Below are positions 29,562-36,160 of a stretch of 36,160 nt of DNA, in pieces. The stretch lies in NCBI GenBank assembly GCA_012837685.1, contig DUQS01000034.1, forward strand, positions 1 to 36,160, given 5' to 3'. The notes under the pieces are model-generated. The model did not search any database. It was not told the DNA's origin and worked only from the letters and a program-made list of their open reading frames with translations. Numbering within the stretch: the first letter of the stretch is position 1; every line of letters starts with the position of its first letter. Both the position numbers and the translations under genes were made by a program. This stretch comes from Bacteroidales bacterium. Its GTDB lineage: Bacteria > Bacteroidota > Bacteroidia > Bacteroidales > Paludibacteraceae.

Positions 29562-29926
29562 AAAAGTAGGACGGTTTGCCGCTGCATAGTTTTCTATGAA
29601 GAGGAAAGTCCGGGCAACAGAGAGCACCATTCTTCCTAACGGGAAGTGGGCTGTGAAGTTCAAGTAGCGTAACAGAAAATAACCGCCTTGATTCGTCGAG
29701 GTAAGGGTGAAAAGGCAGGGTAAGAGCCTACCGTGGTCGTGGCAACACAACCAGCCGTACGCCTAATGGGTTGAAAGATCATGTATATCAGCGCTATAGG
29801 GCTGCTCGTCCGATGCTGAGGGGTAGATCGATAAAAGCTAATGGCGACATTGGTTTTAGATAAATGGCAAACATTCCGCCTGTCGGAATACAGAACCCGG
29901 CTTATAGTCCTACTTCTTATTTTTTG
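29562..29926 (+). ncRNA. rnpB: RNase P RNA (bacterial type A-like)
   Basis: The catalytic RNA of RNase P matures the 5' ends of tRNAs. The conserved P4 5' strand GAGGAAAGTCCGGGC is at 29601-29615 and the 3' partner region ACAGAACCCGGCTTA at 29890-29904. The ends pair in a 9-bp P1 stem: AAGTAGGAC (29564-29572) with GTCCTACTT (29907-29915). A T-rich tract follows P1 (29917-29926), so P1 plus the T-run may also end transcription. Length of about 360 bases is normal. Exact ends are estimated from P1 and the promoter. It lies divergent from thrS. Confidence 0.95.
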
Positions 29927-29944
29927 ATTTTATCAAATACGACA

Positions 29945-31291
29945 ATGAAGAATAAAAAAGCGACATCATCGTTTGGCGAACGGATAAAAAGAATTTACCG
30001 CTTTTTAATCGTTGATATTTGGCACATTACGGAAACGGAAATGTCAAAAACCAGTCGTTTTTTAGTCCGTTTGTTAAAAAAACTTATTCTTTCGGGAAGC
30101 GGTTTCTTCGACCACAGTCTCTCCGCCAAAGCCGCTTCGCTCACCTACTACACGCTAATGGCAATAGTTCCCATTTTTGCCTTGGTCATTGCTATTGGTC
30201 GCGGATTTGGTTTTCAGCACATTATAGAAAATTGGGCGACTAATTTTTTCTCATCGCAAAAGGAACTGATACCTTACATCATACAATTTGTAAATAATTA
30301 TTTGGAACAAGCGCAAGGCGGTCTGTTTTTAGGTATCGGCGTAGCAGTACTATTGTGGTCGGTAATGAGTGCTTTTCGCCAGATAGAGAAAAACTTCAAC
30401 AGTATTTGGGACGTAAAAAAGTCGCGCTCCCTACTGAACCAGTTTACCACCTATTTTTCAATTATGTTCATTACCCCTGTTCTCATTGTTCTTTCTAACA
30501 GCATCTCTATTTTTTTTAACAACCAATTGCGCGCAATGGGCATTGCGGAACATTTTTCGTTTCTCTACACATTTGTCATGCGTATTACACCTTACATTAT
30601 ATATTGGACGCTGTTCACATTTTTGTTCATTGCCATACCCAATACAAAAGTAAAATTTAAACACGCACTATTCGCCGGTATCGTTGTTGGAACATTGTTT
30701 CAAATTTTCCAATGGCTTTACATCAACGGTCAGATGAATTTGTCAAAATACAATGCAGTGTACGGTAGTTTTGCCGCTATTCCATTGTTACTATTTTGGT
30801 TGCAAATATCTTGGTTGATAGTTCTTTACGGAGCAGAACTCACTTTTGCAAGCCAAAATATAGACAACTACAATTTTGCAAAAGAAACAGCACAAATCAG
30901 TCCCCGTTACCGCGATTACGCCGCTATTATCATTATGCGTTCCATAATTTTGAAATTCAAAGACGGCGAACCGCCAATGAATTCTTTGGAAATAGCTAAA
31001 AAAAGCCACACACCCATACGATTGACCAATCAACTTTTAAATATGCTGGTTGAAATAAATTTATTAACGGAAAACTACACGCCCAACCAATCGGACAAAA
31101 CCTATCAGCCCGCTATGGATATTAACGCAATTACAGTACAATTGCTACTGGACAGGATAGAACAAAACGGTTCCGAGAATTTTAAGATTGAAGAAAACTC
31201 TAAAAAATTTGAATCAATTTGGAAGAAGCTGAAAACATGGAAACAAAATAATAACAAAACCTGTTCATCTGTATTAATTAAGGATTTATAA
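29945..31291 (+). CDS. YihY/BrkB-family inner-membrane protein with C-terminal extension
   Basis: From the ATG at 29945 the protein has 448 residues. A longer frame begins at 29864, but those 27 codons lie inside rnpB, so they are not real. The core has about six membrane segments between roughly residues 70 and 300, with the family pattern KAASLTYYTLMAIVPIFAL and VLLWSVMSAFRQIEKNFN. The last 120 or so residues are soluble and look like a winged-helix fold (SLEIAKKSHTPIRLTNQLLNML then EINLLTE). YihY proteins were once called RNase BN, which was an error; their function is unknown, with envelope or transport roles suggested. The NamZ gene starts 19 bases on. Confidence 0.88.
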   Translation: MKNKKATSSFGERIKRIYRFLIVDIWHITETEMSKTSRFLVRLLKKLILSGSGFFDHSLSAKAASLTYYTLMAIVPIFALVIAIGRGFGFQHIIENWATNFFSSQKELIPYIIQFVNNYLEQAQGGLFLGIGVAVLLWSVMSAFRQIEKNFNSIWDVKKSRSLLNQFTTYFSIMFITPVLIVLSNSISIFFNNQLRAMGIAEHFSFLYTFVMRITPYIIYWTLFTFLFIAIPNTKVKFKHALFAGIVVGTLFQIFQWLYINGQMNLSKYNAVYGSFAAIPLLLFWLQISWLIVLYGAELTFASQNIDNYNFAKETAQISPRYRDYAAIIIMRSIILKFKDGEPPMNSLEIAKKSHTPIRLTNQLLNMLVEINLLTENYTPNQSDKTYQPAMDINAITVQLLLDRIEQNGSENFKIEENSKKFESIWKKLKTWKQNNNKTCSSVLIKDL

Positions 31292-31310
31292 TAAACAAAA
31301 AAATTAAGCT

Positions 31311-32489
31311 ATGCGAAAAACACTCATTATCAGCTTAATATGTCTTGCTACCCTACCCGTGCATGCCAACGGAGTTATTGTAGGTGCTGAGCAAATTGCC
31401 GCCTACCTTCCTGTTATTAAAGGAAAAAAGATTGGCATTGTGGCTAATCAATCGAGCATGGTAAAAGATATACATTTGGTCGATTTTTTGGTAGCCATCA
31501 ACACACGCATCGACTGCATTTTTGCAGTTGAACACGGTTTTAGAGGCACTGCCGATGCCGGAGAACACATTTCCAGCTACACCGACAAAACCACAGGAAT
31601 ACCCGTGCGTTCACTTTATGATGGCGGCATAGGAAAGCCTTCGCCCGAAGTTATGGCTGAACTGGACGTGGTTATATTTGATTTACAGGACGTTGGACTG
31701 CGCTACTATACCTATCTGACCAATTTAGCTAAATTGATGGAAGCTTGCGCCGACAGCGAAACGCTACTACTCATTCTCGACCGTCCCAATCCCAACGGAC
31801 ACTATGTGGATGGTCCTATTTTAGACATGAAATATAAATCGGGAGTCGGCTATTTGCCCATTCCCATTGTACACGGCATGACTTTGGGCGAAATGGCACT
31901 AATGATTAACGGCGAAAAATGGCTGCCAGACGGAAAACAGTGCAACCTGCGCATTATTACTTGCAGAAATTACACTCACCAAACGCTCTATACGCTGCCA
32001 ATACCACCGTCGCCCAACCTGCCAAATATGCGCTCTATTTACCTCTATCCGTCACTTTGCTTTTTTGAGGCTACTCCTGTAAGTTTAGGACGCGGCACAA
32101 CTACTCCGTTTCAGGTTTATGGACATCCCAATATGATAGGCTATAATTTTTCGTTCATTCCACAATCGACAAGCGGTGCGCGTAAACCACCGCAAATGGG
32201 ATTGAGATGCTACGGACGCAACCTCACCACACAGCCAACCAACGAAGAAGTTTTCAAGCGCGGTGTGGATTTGCAATACCTAATAGATGCCTACAACAAT
32301 TTGCATATAGGCAACCACTTTTTTAATCCTTTTTTTGAAAAACTCATCGGAGTGGATTATGTACGAAAAATGATATTGAACGGTAGTTCAGCCGATGAAA
32401 TCAAAGCAATGTGGCAAGATGATGTGGAAAAATTCAAAAAACAACGTGCTCCTTATCTTTTGTACAAAGATGATGCACTTCAACAATAG
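31311..32489 (+). CDS. Exo-beta-N-acetylmuramidase NamZ family (DUF1343)
   Basis: The 392-residue protein has a signal peptide (cleavage likely near VHANG, residue 19-21) and the DUF1343 pattern: KIGIVANQSSM at about 40-50, EHGFRG at 74-79, and FDLQDVGLRYYTY at 123-135, followed by DRPNPNGHYVDGP. Characterised members (YbbC/NamZ of Bacillus and the Tannerella homologue) release MurNAc from non-reducing ends of peptidoglycan fragments. The protein should act in the periplasm. It is followed by a DUF4301 gene 27 bases downstream, so a shared cell-wall role is possible. Catalytic residues were not assigned with certainty. Confidence 0.88.
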   Translation: MRKTLIISLICLATLPVHANGVIVGAEQIAAYLPVIKGKKIGIVANQSSMVKDIHLVDFLVAINTRIDCIFAVEHGFRGTADAGEHISSYTDKTTGIPVRSLYDGGIGKPSPEVMAELDVVIFDLQDVGLRYYTYLTNLAKLMEACADSETLLLILDRPNPNGHYVDGPILDMKYKSGVGYLPIPIVHGMTLGEMALMINGEKWLPDGKQCNLRIITCRNYTHQTLYTLPIPPSPNLPNMRSIYLYPSLCFFEATPVSLGRGTTTPFQVYGHPNMIGYNFSFIPQSTSGARKPPQMGLRCYGRNLTTQPTNEEVFKRGVDLQYLIDAYNNLHIGNHFFNPFFEKLIGVDYVRKMILNGSSADEIKAMWQDDVEKFKKQRAPYLLYKDDALQQ

Positions 32490-32516
32490 ATTATTAAACC
32501 TTTAAAATATAACAAC

Positions 32517-34019
32517 ATGTTTACACCAGCAGATTTACAGCAATTAGCATCGAAAGGAATTTCGATTGCACAAGCAGAAGAGCAACTAAATTACTTCAAA
32601 CAAGGATTTCCACAGCTCGAAATCAAACAGGCAGCCAATGTCGGCAATGGTATTTCACGTCTTTCCGACGAAGAGCAAGAAAAATATATCGACCTGTGGG
32701 AGAAGTATTTAGACAGTGATAACACCATTGTAAAGTTTGTTCCGGCATCAGGAGCAGCCAGCCGTATGTTCAAAAATCTTTTTGAATTTTTAAACGGCAA
32801 TCAAGAGCTTCCGAATACCGAATTTATGCTATCGTTTTTTCACCAAATAGCAAAATTCTCTTTTTATAACGAACTCAACGATGCTTGTAAGAAAAACGAA
32901 GGAGCCAGTATAGAAAAATTGATGGCTGATAAAAATTACAAAGCGATTGTATCCAACCTGTTGGAAGAAAAAGGATTGAACTATGGAACATTGCCAAAAG
33001 GTCTTTTAAATTTCCACACTTACGTTGAAGAAGTACGGACACCATTTTTGGAACATTTGGTAGAAGGTGCGCTGTATGCCAACAACAAAAAAAACGAAGT
33101 CAATATCCATTTCACTGTGTCGGGTGAGCATAAAGAGCTGTTTAAAAAGCACTTAATGGACAATCTTTCCAGTTATACCGAAAAATTCGGCGTAAAATTC
33201 AACATCAGCTTTTCCGAACAAAAACCGTCCACCGATACTTTGGCTGTGGACAAAAACAATGTACCGTTCCGCACCGCCGAAGGCAAATTACTGTTCCGCC
33301 CGGGAGGACACGGCGCACTTATACACAATTTGAACGATATTGAGGCAGACGTTGTTTTCATTAAAAACATTGATAATGTGGTTCCCGACCGTCTCAAAAA
33401 TTCAACTATTACCTACAAAAAGATTATCGGCGGATTTTTAGTGGCTTTGCAGCAACAAACATTTGCTTACCTGAAAGAATTGGAAAATGAACAAATATCC
33501 GATTCAAAATTGATGATTATCAAGCAATTCTGCGAAGCTCGATTGAATAACATTCAGCCAAACGAGCCAAAAAATCGCAACGAATTAATCGATTATCTGA
33601 AGCAAAAACTCAACCGACCTATTCGCGTTTGCGGCATGGTGAAAAACGAAGGCGAACCCGGCGGAGGTCCTTTCCTTACGGTAAATGCCGACGGAACCAT
33701 ATCGCCCCAAATTTTGGAAAGTTCGCAGATAAAAGACCAAAACATAATGACGCAATCGACACACTTCAACCCTGTAGATTTAGTGTGCGCTATAAAAGAT
33801 TACCGCGGTAACCATTTCAATTTATTAAGCTACGTGGACAAACAGACCGGATTTATATCTTCCAAATCTTATGACGGCAAAGAGCTGAAAGCCTTGGAGT
33901 TACCGGGCTTGTGGAATGGCGCCATGAGCGATTGGAACACCGTTTTCGTAGAAGTACCGTCAGACACTTTCAACCCTGTAAAAACTGTAAATGACTTATT
34001 GAGAGAAGAACATCAATAA
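32517..34019 (+). CDS. DUF4301 family protein, possible GT-A-type nucleotidyltransferase
   Basis: The 500-residue cytoplasmic protein matches DUF4301, a Bacteroidetes family without known function. In order it shows a glycine-rich VPASGAASRM (75-84), LPKGLL with K161 followed by TPFLEHLVEGALY (175-187), FTVSGEH (199-205), FSEQKPSTDT (232-241), RPGGHGALIHNL (261-272) and KNIDN (283-287). This order resembles the UDP-sugar pyrophosphorylase family: G-rich loop, PKG lysine, MTS, F-x-Q, PdGnGg and the vDN metal site. I infer a nucleotidyltransferase fold acting on a sugar phosphate; the substrate is unknown. It follows NamZ by 27 bases and is followed by a strong terminator, so it ends the yihY-namZ unit. 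Confidence 0.8.
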   Translation: MFTPADLQQLASKGISIAQAEEQLNYFKQGFPQLEIKQAANVGNGISRLSDEEQEKYIDLWEKYLDSDNTIVKFVPASGAASRMFKNLFEFLNGNQELPNTEFMLSFFHQIAKFSFYNELNDACKKNEGASIEKLMADKNYKAIVSNLLEEKGLNYGTLPKGLLNFHTYVEEVRTPFLEHLVEGALYANNKKNEVNIHFTVSGEHKELFKKHLMDNLSSYTEKFGVKFNISFSEQKPSTDTLAVDKNNVPFRTAEGKLLFRPGGHGALIHNLNDIEADVVFIKNIDNVVPDRLKNSTITYKKIIGGFLVALQQQTFAYLKELENEQISDSKLMIIKQFCEARLNNIQPNEPKNRNELIDYLKQKLNRPIRVCGMVKNEGEPGGGPFLTVNADGTISPQILESSQIKDQNIMTQSTHFNPVDLVCAIKDYRGNHFNLLSYVDKQTGFISSKSYDGKELKALELPGLWNGAMSDWNTVFVEVPSDTFNPVKTVNDLLREEHQ

Positions 34020-34024
34020 TAGCG

Positions 34025-34054
34025 AAAGAGGCGTTTTCAGACGCCTCTTTTTTT
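34025..34054 (+). terminator. Intrinsic terminator after the DUF4301 gene
   Basis: A 10-bp perfect stem (AAAGAGGCGT at 34025-34034 with ACGCCTCTTT at 34041-34050), a six-base loop and a run of seven T. It starts 5 bases after the stop codon and ends only 11 bases before the next start codon. Confidence 0.92.
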
Positions 34055-34065
34055 AGTGATTATCA

Positions 34066-34989
34066 ATGAAAGAACGCATAAACTACTATAACATCCGACT
34101 AAAGGAACTGTTTAACGGACGCATACAAAAGCTCTCAATCAATGCCGGATGCACCTGTCCCAACCGCGATGGCAGCATCGGACGAGGCGGCTGTACCTAT
34201 TGCAATAACGAAACCTTTCGCCCTGACTATTGCCAAGCACAAAAAAACATCTCACAACAAATAATCGAAGGCATCAATTTTTTCAAGGATAAATACAGCA
34301 GTCAGCACTATTTTGCCTATTTTCAAACTTACACTAATACTTACGGCGACACCGACAAACTCATCCGAAAATATGACGAAGCGTTGGAAAATCCTATTAT
34401 AGAAGGACTGGTTATTGGCACTCGTCCCGACTGCATGAATGCCGATTTGTTCGACTATTTCAAGAAAAAAAGCAAAAGCCGCTACATTATGATTGAATAC
34501 GGCATTGAATCGACACACAACGCAACTTTAGATTTCATACATAGAGGACACAGCTACGAAACAGCAAAAGAAACCATTTTCAAAACAGCAGAAAACGGTA
34601 TACACGTTGGCGCACACCTTATTTTAGGATTGCCTTTCGAATCGCATGAAATGATGATGGAAAGTGCGAAAGAGATAGCGCATCTACCGCTGGATATGGT
34701 AAAACTGCACCAACTACAAATAGTAAAAGGCACACAAATGGCAGAACAATACGCCCAACATCCCGAATGGTTTTCACTGTTCACACTCGACGAATACATT
34801 AATTTAGTTATTGATTTTATAGAATATTTGCCACCAACCATCGCTATCGGACGTTTTGTATCACAATCGCCGAAAAACTTGCTGATTGCACCCGATTGGG
34901 GCATAAAAAATTACGAATTCAACGAAAAAATCAATAAACGTATTAAAAATAGAGAGACTTATCAAGGACGTTTTTCGCAAATTCCATAA
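34066..34989 (+). CDS. Radical SAM protein, YhcC/TIGR01212 family
   Basis: The 307-residue protein carries the radical SAM cysteines C31-x11-C43-x2-C46 in the YhcC form (TCPNRDGSIGRGGCTYC). Further family segments are YFQTYTNTY, IGTRPDC, EYGIESTHNATL and GAHLILGLP. It should bind a 4Fe-4S cluster and cleave S-adenosylmethionine; the substrate is not established. The family is related to the Elp3/MiaB-like radical SAM fold. Its start is 11 bases after a terminator, so it has no room for a normal separate promoter and leader. It may rely on read-through or on a promoter within the terminator region. Confidence 0.9.
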   Translation: MKERINYYNIRLKELFNGRIQKLSINAGCTCPNRDGSIGRGGCTYCNNETFRPDYCQAQKNISQQIIEGINFFKDKYSSQHYFAYFQTYTNTYGDTDKLIRKYDEALENPIIEGLVIGTRPDCMNADLFDYFKKKSKSRYIMIEYGIESTHNATLDFIHRGHSYETAKETIFKTAENGIHVGAHLILGLPFESHEMMMESAKEIAHLPLDMVKLHQLQIVKGTQMAEQYAQHPEWFSLFTLDEYINLVIDFIEYLPPTIAIGRFVSQSPKNLLIAPDWGIKNYEFNEKINKRIKNRETYQGRFSQIP

Positions 34990-35029
34990 AAAACAGGTCA
35001 ATTATCCCACTTATCCCATTTTTTTTAAC

Positions 35030-35037
35030 TATATTTG
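35030..35037 (+). promoter_or_regulatory. -7 promoter element for udk
   Basis: TATATTTG matches TAnnTTTG, 24 bases before the udk start codon. The -33 region at the expected distance has no TTTG. Confidence 0.45.
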
Positions 35038-35060
35038 CCAAATTATAAAAACAAATTTTT

Positions 35061-35735
35061 ATGTTAATTATCGGAATTGCCGGAGGTACCGGTTCGGGAA
35101 AAACCACAGTCGTACAGAAAATTATCGAAAGCCTTCCCCCGGGCGAAGTTGTTCTACTACCACAAGACTCTTACTATAAAGACAGTAGCCACGTACCGGT
35201 AGAAGAACGCCAATTTATCAACTTCGACCATCCTGACGCCTTTGATTGGGCACTGCTGTCAAAGCAACTAAATATGCTAAAGGAAGGTAAAAGCATCGAA
35301 CAACCCACCTACTCTTACATTACCTGCACACGCCAGCCCGAAACCATACATATAGAGCCGCGTGACGTAGTCATTGTCGAAGGAATTTTGGCATTGTGCG
35401 ACCCGAAACTGCGTAGCCAAATGAACTTAAAAGTGTTTGTGGATGCCGACCCCGATGAACGTCTGATACGCGTCATTAGTCGCGACGTGGTAGAACGCGG
35501 ACGCACTGCCGAAATGGTAATGGAACGCTACACACACGTGTTGAAGCCCATGCATCTGCAATTCATAGAACCGACAAAACGCTACGCCGACCTCATTGTA
35601 CCGCAAGGCGGAAACAATAAAGTAGCTATCGATATTCTCACCATGTACATCGAAAAGAACCTAAAAAACTCAACAAAAAATAAGTTTTGCTATGCAGTAC
35701 ATTCCATTGGAAAAAATACTGTTTCTCGATATTGA
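35061..35735 (+). CDS. udk: Uridine kinase
   Basis: The 224-residue P-loop kinase has Walker A GGTGSGKT at residues 8-15, the PQDSYYKD and NFDHPDAFDW segments and the EGILAL motif. It phosphorylates uridine and cytidine using ATP or GTP in pyrimidine salvage. Udk usually ends near residue 205-210; here about 20 extra residues (after IEKNLKN) have no family resemblance and overlap the next gene by 44 bases. One additional A in the A-run near 35675-35681 would create a stop there. The frame therefore may reflect an assembly or sequencing slip, or a genuine overlap. The catalytic part is intact. Confidence 0.93.
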   Translation: MLIIGIAGGTGSGKTTVVQKIIESLPPGEVVLLPQDSYYKDSSHVPVEERQFINFDHPDAFDWALLSKQLNMLKEGKSIEQPTYSYITCTRQPETIHIEPRDVVIVEGILALCDPKLRSQMNLKVFVDADPDERLIRVISRDVVERGRTAEMVMERYTHVLKPMHLQFIEPTKRYADLIVPQGGNNKVAIDILTMYIEKNLKNSTKNKFCYAVHSIGKNTVSRY

Positions 35736-36160
35736 GACCGTTCCGCAAACGGAATCGTTAGATAACTTGCCGCCCGAACTGCGTCTTTTGTGGAAAGAAA
35801 AATTCAACACCATAAAACTGCGCATGCCCGAAAAATATGAAACGGAAACAACAGCCGAAGAAGGCTATAAAAAAAGTGCCGGTATTTATTCCGAATTTGC
35901 AAAAGTTGTCTGCATTTCTGTCGGTTTTATCTACTTTAAAGATAAAGAAATGTACATCAAAGTAAAATCTTTTGCCGGTGATGACGAAATTCAGTTGCTA
36001 AATGATTTTGCCGCAATGATGGAAAAACAGCCACAATACTACCTATGCGGACACAATATCAAAGAGTTTGATATTCCTTTTTTGTGCCGACGTATGTTGG
36101 TAAACGGAATTACTATTCCCCTCTCTATGAATGTTGCCGGCAAAAAGCCTTGGGAAACAA
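35692..36160 (+). CDS. 3'-5' exonuclease, PolB-like DnaQ fold (5' part, truncated by the window)
   Basis: The frame from ATG at 35692 stays open to the window end, giving 156 visible residues. ExoI motif is FLDIETVP with D13 and E15, and ExoII is CGHNIKEFDIPFLCRR. This fits the predicted PolB-like 3'-5' exonuclease family (DNA_pol_B_exo2), a stand-alone DEDD nuclease. ExoIII lies beyond the edge. Its role is not known; single-strand DNA or RNA trimming is expected from the fold. It overlaps the udk reading frame by 44 bases, and the two probably share a transcript. Confidence 0.85.
   Translation, partial: MQYIPLEKILFLDIETVPQTESLDNLPPELRLLWKEKFNTIKLRMPEKYETETTAEEGYKKSAGIYSEFAKVVCISVGFIYFKDKEMYIKVKSFAGDDEIQLLNDFAAMMEKQPQYYLCGHNIKEFDIPFLCRRMLVNGITIPLSMNVAGKKPWET

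Follow-up and report, generated by a model that had tools for sequence, protein, structure and literature searches.

What does a DUF4301 protein do? The family is near-universal among the sampled relatives of the organism studied here, occurs phylum-wide and has no assigned function; our literature search found no functional report on it, and returned one paper with a single mention of the name. The original prediction, made from the letters of the window (the whole stretch of 36,160 nucleotides analysed here), had read the protein as a divergent UDP-sugar pyrophosphorylase-type nucleotidyltransferase, a placement that gives the family a testable activity. Fold and family affiliation are both supported, by Foldseek, VIA-align, profile searches, Pfam and hhalign. 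What is new is that a family lacking annotation receives a predicted function, together with a kinase fusion; the chemistry is of a known kind.

The locus and its homologs

The gene and its immediate neighbors are as follows.

31311..32489, + strand: NamZ exo-beta-N-acetylmuramidase gene, upstream neighbor (context only)
32517..34019, + strand: DUF4301 (PF14134) gene, 500 aa from ATG to stop; predicted divergent UDPGP-type nucleotidyltransferase
34066..34989, + strand: MnmL/YtqA-type radical SAM protein gene, downstream neighbor (context only)

NamZ lies upstream of the DUF4301 gene with a gap of 27 bp, and the stretch 29864-36160 reads YihY/BrkB, NamZ, DUF4301, MnmL, Udk, a run also present in the one same-genus genome that was read (G296, locus L217). 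The protein belongs to DUF4301 by a full-length Pfam match above the cut-off (residues 5-500 on profile positions 3-507 of 507; E 1.5e-229; 763.5 bits, cut-off 27), and NCBIfam assigned it no family, yielding one chance match far under cut-off. Homologs were recovered from 578 loci in named genomes, the best 80 of which are Bacteroidales by title, at 57-65% identity. Two alignments were used: A1, comprising the window protein and 42 relatives obtained by thinning these best 80 of 578 loci at 85% identity, and A2, comprising the window protein and 44 diverse members from the phylum (n=45; 33-65% identity to the window protein). The latter were drawn from 5 of the 80 Bacteroidales loci and 39 of 40 fetched regions, L150 being excluded as its gene is in two pieces.

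Predicted fold

The AlphaFold2 model built from A1 (pLDDT 90.9, pTM 0.89) was compared with the PDB. By description, the best 44 Foldseek matches (2.1e-11 to 4.2e-7) are pyrophosphorylases, some of them putative, for UDP-glucose, UDP-GlcNAc or UDP-sugars, and further GT-A enzymes come next, from 4e-4. VIA-align placed yeast Ugp1p at Z 21.6 (320 residues aligned, 3.5 A, 18% identity) and AGX2 at Z 21.2, with GlmU following at Z 16; 303-344 residues were aligned with UGP, UAP and USP chains, most rows spanning model residues 1-500. A GT-A fold in the predicted structure had been set beforehand as the test on which the reading would stand or fall, and the model has one, of the UDPGP type that defines the UGP/UAP/USP structural family. 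As far as computation goes, UDPGP-type fold and homology are established.

DUF4301 was compared with the closest known enzymes. With UGP (PF01704; human 3r2w, yeast 2i5k) it has the fold of the catalytic region in common, at about 9-20% identity in structure alignments. Against UAP/AGX (3oc9, 1jv1, 4bma) VIA-align gives Z of about 17-21, and a GNGG or GHGG sequence in UAP stands where DUF4301 has GHGA. The PF00483 nucleotidyltransferases (GalU, RmlA, GlmU) belong to the same GT-A superfamily and carry out the same type of reaction as UDPGP enzymes; their catalytic part is shorter, whereas DUF4301 has UDPGP-type motifs. The window protein has no PF00483 match at E <= 1, and DUF4301 has no match to the GalU model TIGR01099 at E <= 1, leaving the GalU threshold of 326.8 bits unreached.

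Conserved motifs and their register

The motifs that tie the protein to UDPGP enzymes occupy the following positions.

32742..32768, + strand: PASGAASRM, residues 76-84; putative nucleotide-binding loop, flanked in the model by strand 71-75 and helix 81-93
32796..32990, + strand: mostly helical insertion with approximate borders, about residues 94-158, separating the loop from the PKG lysine; not present in UGP
32994..33002, + strand: PKG, residues 160-162; K161 aligned with the PKS lysine of UGP
33210..33221, + strand: FSEQ, residues 232-235; Q235 aligned with the FNQ glutamine of UGP
33297..33320, + strand: RPGGHGAL, residues 261-268; aligned with YPPGHGDI (UGP) and APNGHGGL (Entamoeba UAP)
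33363..33377, + strand: KNIDN, residues 283-287; aligned with SNIDN (UGP) and HNVDN (UAP)
33651..33674, + strand: GEPGGGPF, residues 379-386; GG aligned with the GG of DVKGGT (UGP)
33714..33782, + strand: LESSQI ... FNPVDL, residues 400-422; aligned with LVEIAQV ... FNTNNL (UGP)
33972..34001, + strand: NPVKTVNDLL, residues 486-495; aligned with LPVKTTSDLL (UGP), K489 opposite K396 in the human sequence used

All six motifs of the original prediction are present, although SGAASRM spans 78-84 and not 77-84 as first given; LPKGLL lies at 159-164, TPFLEHLVE at 175-183 and FTVSGEH at 199-205, and within the C-terminal block LESSQI and FNPVDL take up 400-405 and 417-422. Conservation across DUF4301 homologs, on which the prediction also depended, holds throughout the 45 diverse members of A2. 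Invariant there are P76, A77, S78, G79, R83, M84, P160, K161, T200, S233 and Q235 in the N-terminal half; R261, P262, G264, H265, G266, L268, K283, N284, D286 and N287 in the middle; and G382, G383, E401, Q404, F417, N418, V488, K489, D493 and L494 in the C-terminal part, with N492 and L495 kept in at least 90% of members. Because the named motif residues are invariant in so diverse a set, their conservation is not chance.

Two of the earlier motif assignments need qualification. A loop is present where the G-rich nucleotide loop had been proposed, but SGAASRM is Ala-rich, and it falls outside the part aligned by hhalign. It sits at the right place in the model for a GGxGT-type loop, and this position is the basis for a putative equivalence of loop 76-84 with the GGxGT loop and for a tentative register between them. 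The LPKGLL lysine K161 does have a counterpart in the PKS lysine, yet it lies 77 residues past M84, across a helical insertion absent from UGP: 75 mostly helical residues separate M84 from P160 (model helices 102-109, 117-128, 132-137 and 141-149), whereas 4 residues separate the loop from PKS in UGP.

Sequence evidence independent of the model

When the A2 profile was searched against 177,635 PDB sequences, the single match at E <= 10 was the UDP-GlcNAc pyrophosphorylase 3oc9 (E 0.006), in which APNGHGGL is paired with RPgGHGaL and HNVDN with KNiDN; UAP is thus the sole PDB family reached by the DUF4301 profile. A phmmer search of the PDB with the window protein alone gave six matches at E 0.19 or worse, with no nucleotidyltransferase among them. 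In a Pfam scan at E <= 1 (24,736 families), UDPGP was the commonest family after DUF4301, matching 17 of 45 members in a first set (best 1.1e-4) and 27 of 43 in a second (best 2.4e-3), the two sets having 5 members in common. DUF4202 ranked third, with 3 members in the set of 45 and 6 in the set of 43, where its best E of 0.0016 is slightly below the 0.0024 of UDPGP.

The hhalign comparison of A2 with three UGP sequences scored 34.6 (P 0.0017), at a probability of just 15.7%. Controls, namely 75 alignments of neighbor proteins taken as the first 75 neighbor clusters with at least three members and unmatched to DUF4301 in length and depth, averaged 17.1 (sd 2.6, maximum 23.05). Relaxed alignment paired K161 with the PKS lysine, Q235 with the FNQ glutamine, RPGGHG with YPPGHG and KNIDN with SNIDN, and further along GGGP with KGGT, LESSQ with LVEIAQ, FNPVDL with FNTNNL and NPVKTVNDLL with LPVKTTSDLL, so setting Q235, H265, D286 and K489 on UGP counterparts; the global mode gave a meaningless alignment. 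The PKG/PKS lysine, the base-reading Gln, the GHG (or GNG) loop, the DN pair and the PVKT..DLL lysine of UDPGP all have equivalents in DUF4301, and the order and register of PKG/PKS, FSEQ/FNQ, PGGHG/PPGHG, NIDN, GG, LExxQ, FN and PVKT..DLL are common to DUF4301 and UGP. The C-terminal motifs GEPGGGPF, LESSQI, FNPVDL and NPVKTVNDLL, which the original prediction did not include, rank with the strongest ties to UDP-glucose pyrophosphorylase.

Behind its nucleotide loop, DUF4301 carries 65-75 mostly helical residues that the compared UGP sequences do not have; it also differs from UGP in its Ala-rich loop, FNPVD where UGP has FNTNN, K283 for S and R261 for Y. Its chain stops shortly past the PVKT..DLL motif, a few residues beyond the point that aligns with human residue 403 (of 508), whereas the human protein continues for about 105 more; the C-terminal extension of UGP, a left-handed beta-helix, is absent from DUF4301, and matched UGP chain ranges end at 370-412. 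PF01704 itself (gathering cut-off 22 bits) leaves the window protein unmatched at E <= 1. Among 41 relatives it gives a weak match in 5 genomes, and in 4 of them the match overlaps the DUF4301 gene; one of these exceeds the cut-off with frame neighbors included, the overlapping matches running beyond the gene end and across stop codons. This search detects DUF4301 in just 4 of 37 carriers among the relatives and in none of 20 carriers in a sample of the class. Given the insertion, the missing extension, the unmatched window protein and its weakly matching relatives, DUF4301 is, by sequence, best placed as a sister family of UDPGP, outside PF01704.

Predicted reaction

We conclude that DUF4301 is very probably a far-diverged bacterial line within the UDPGP-type GT-A enzymes and that it would most likely interconvert UTP and sugar-1-phosphate with UDP-sugar and PPi. 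Nucleotidyltransferase catalysis as such is predicted with equally high confidence, and UTP is predicted, somewhat less firmly, as the probable donor. In UGP and UAP, the phosphates, the metal and uracil are handled by H, K, D and Q residues, and the FNQ glutamine matched by Q235 is one that we take to contact uracil. By analogy, the nucleotide would rest on loop 76-84, its base read by Q235; H265, K161 and K489 would hold the phosphates and D286 the metal, and the acceptor pocket would be formed from the region of GGGP, E401 and N418. Fold, homology, conservation and the motif register from residue 160 on are computed here, whereas these residue roles are carried over from UGP and UAP; they were not found in passages of a UAP structure report (PMC3888555), and a literature search yielded no active-site residue numbers for the Leishmania enzyme.

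Phyletic distribution and clues to the sugar

DUF4301 was found in 37 of 41 relatives from the window's order, 20 of 149 genomes of the class and 51 of 296 genomes of the phylum. The galU gene exceeds its cut-off in 5 of the 296 phylum genomes, 2 of which (G190 and G249) carry DUF4301 too, and most of the 296 have neither. A general anticorrelation between galU and DUF4301 is absent across these genomes and was rejected. In the 41 genomes sampled from the window's order there is hardly any galU above cut-off and, DUF4301 itself apart, hardly any UDPGP gene: galU exceeds its cut-off in none of the 37 DUF4301-carrying relatives and in 1 of the 41, G333. This genome belongs to the four relatives that have no DUF4301, a coincidence with odds of about 4/41 by itself. 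G311, also among those four, has a completeness of just 67%.

In the window's genome, UDPGP gives no match and galU none above cut-off; both listed galU matches, of four in all, sit outside DUF4301, in other genes. Its three PF00483 matches are RmlA, over cut-off, and a GDP-mannose type and a MurU-like protein, both below. It also has a GT3 glycogen synthase match over cut-off. Such matches occur in 11 genomes, 5 with DUF4301 and 6 without, and tight co-occurrence of the two was rejected on that count. According to passages of PMC11046441, UDP-glucose is the substrate of eukaryotic GT3 enzymes, and GT3 synthases occur in Bacteroidetes. None of 9 PF00483 matches in B. fragilis Q1F2 was judged GalU-like; NCBIfam named two (RmlA and glucose-1-phosphate cytidylyltransferase), one had no match at 1e-40, and six were called by eye. 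A second candidate UDP-sugar enzyme was seen in Prevotella communis, where L210:1372-3399 (- strand) encodes a 676-aa fusion of a GHMP kinase and a GalU-like nucleotidyltransferase.

DUF4301 in Bacteroidales is a candidate UDP-glucose pyrophosphorylase, given the lack of galU above cut-off in the 37 carriers and the GT3 glycogen synthase of the window's genome, UDP-glucose being a reasonable if unproven product. Glucose-1-phosphate as acceptor there is a tentative choice, although UDP-glucose is the leading single guess. The assignment is weak because galU and DUF4301 coexist in 2 of the 5 galU genomes, the GT3 link is loose, P. communis has the GalU-like fusion, and the G333 coincidence carries the odds given above. 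A fructose phosphate-activated UDP-glucose pyrophosphorylase activity of Prevotella bryantii is cited, from Lou et al. 1997a, in passages of PMC4432691; were DUF4301 to make UDP-glucose, it would supply the gene. Judged by title and abstract, none of the papers found in our literature search, which mostly did not reach subscription journals, describes a gene for UDP-glucose pyrophosphorylase in Bacteroides. In some lineages DUF4301 may be the missing enzyme for an activated sugar.

Association with a NadR-type kinase

In one family, designated f6 and probably Flavobacteriaceae (partly because Flavo-1 RNA was found in 3 of 10 loci scanned), 23 of 26 DUF4301 genes lie directly downstream of, or are fused to, a NadR-type kinase (AAA_28), with 11-27 bp between the kinase and DUF4301 matches. 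Kinase and DUF4301 occupy one frame of 733-800 aa in 15 of the 51 carrier genomes, all of them f6; in the one such protein scanned, AAA_28 and DUF4301 both score. An example is

L128:5553-7664, + strand: kinase-DUF4301 frame (also in L019, L126 and L144)

Three f6 kinases align with the kinase part of TIGR01526 (E 6e-27 to 5e-30). PnuC lies within four genes of DUF4301 in 12 of 15 f6 loci read and immediately before it in the three f6 genomes that have no kinase close by; the three PnuC proteins scanned all pass the threshold set for the nicotinamide riboside transporter model. Several f6 loci continue downstream with genes for an RF-1 domain protein and for a TonB-dependent receptor, with one scanned example apiece. 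In L150 (G289), the DUF4301 gene is in two pieces, right after PnuC, with no close kinase.

The same PnuC-kinase-RF-1 operon stands without DUF4301 in the f6 genomes G029, G088 and G107 (L168, L169, L170). Two genomes that lack DUF4301, G126 and G072, have a PnuC-kinase pair, and in G273, G194 and G111 such a pair lies apart from DUF4301. Outside f6, none of the 25 other carriers has an adjoining kinase, counting the best kinase match per genome and excluding a weak partial one in G289 (E 7.9e-4, far from DUF4301); G230 and G238, from the window's order, have no kinase match. Since the operon is also found without DUF4301 and 25 other carriers have no adjacent kinase, the link is real in one family and dispensable for both partners. 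A small neighbor that by eye resembled a thiamine-binding protein had prompted a thiamine uptake reading of the PnuC operon, which was rejected; no TPP riboswitch reached the Rfam threshold in 10 loci, the neighbor had no Pfam match at 1e-8, and the scanned PnuC proteins score as nicotinamide riboside transporters.

Outside f6, DUF4301 is often divergent from relA (41 of 117 loci, 39 of them among the best 80 of 578; relA identified from one example scanned). The 45 commonest neighbor clusters of the 117 loci, most judged by eye, showed no clear association with another specific sugar pathway. These neighborhood counts rest on a simple longest-ORF caller that failed to call DUF4301 in 4 of 121 loci (L035, L062, L066, L075).

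Alternative readings

With the kinase adjoining or fused in 23 of 26 genomes, DUF4301 of f6 may have another acceptor. NadR joins an NMN adenylyltransferase to a nicotinamide riboside kinase, and one family fuses DUF4301 to a NadR-type kinase domain, so that here the UDPGP fold might replace the adenylyltransferase half and act on NMN or another riboside 5'-phosphate. The proximity of PnuC, which directly precedes DUF4301 even in the three cases with no kinase close by, fits such a role. Yet it is unlikely, for PnuC and the kinase travel without or apart from DUF4301 in the eight genomes named above, the 25 carriers outside f6 dispense with an adjacent kinase, and Q235 and the motifs aligned to the UGP sugar pocket favor UTP and sugar-1-phosphate. 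The adenylyltransferase of NadR has a HUP fold, unrelated to UDPGP. It is slightly less likely again that the probable Flavobacteriaceae fusion is a new NadR-like salvage enzyme that activates a PnuC-imported riboside phosphate (NMN or a relative); if true, it would be the first UDPGP-fold enzyme to act on something besides a sugar-1-phosphate, as to our knowledge none is known.

That DUF4301 is an active UDPGP-type enzyme for a sugar other than glucose (for example a hexosamine, a uronic acid, a pentose or another hexose-1-phosphate) has a chance only a little short of even. UDPGP-fold relatives vary in their sugar, with UGP, UAP and USP all among the structural matches; the pocket differs at FNPVD, K283 and R261; and galU accompanies DUF4301 in G190 and G249. 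Against this, the neighbor clusters offered no other specific sugar pathway. A protein that has kept the fold and lost catalysis, serving as a nucleotide or UDP-sugar sensor, would account for the Ala-rich loop where Gly-Gly is expected and for the large helical insertion beside the nucleotide site, but it is an improbable reading, as the counterparts of the phosphate- and metal-binding residues are invariant in 45 members, which is unexpected for a retired enzyme. Far less probable than any of these is a part in peptidoglycan sugar recycling, making UDP-MurNAc beside NamZ. The 27-bp spacing in the window invites it, but NamZ is adjacent only in the window's genus: in 1 of 9 relatives read, the same-genus G296, and in 0 of 120 other loci, with flanks of varying length (full 10 kb on both sides in only 42 of the best 80 of 578). 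The window's genome, moreover, already encodes a MurU-like protein paired with an AmgK-like one, each scoring under its curated cut-off. With adjacency confined to the genus and a MurU-like gene elsewhere in the genome, NamZ-based recycling was rejected, and a UDP-sugar pyrophosphorylase-type activity is the reading that we prefer.

At L189:1495-3651 (- strand; G000:C13), in the window's own genome, a MurU-like nucleotidyltransferase follows a kinase of the APH type (AmgK-like) that carries a fused RapZ C-terminal domain; this kinase-RapZ fusion seemed unusual.
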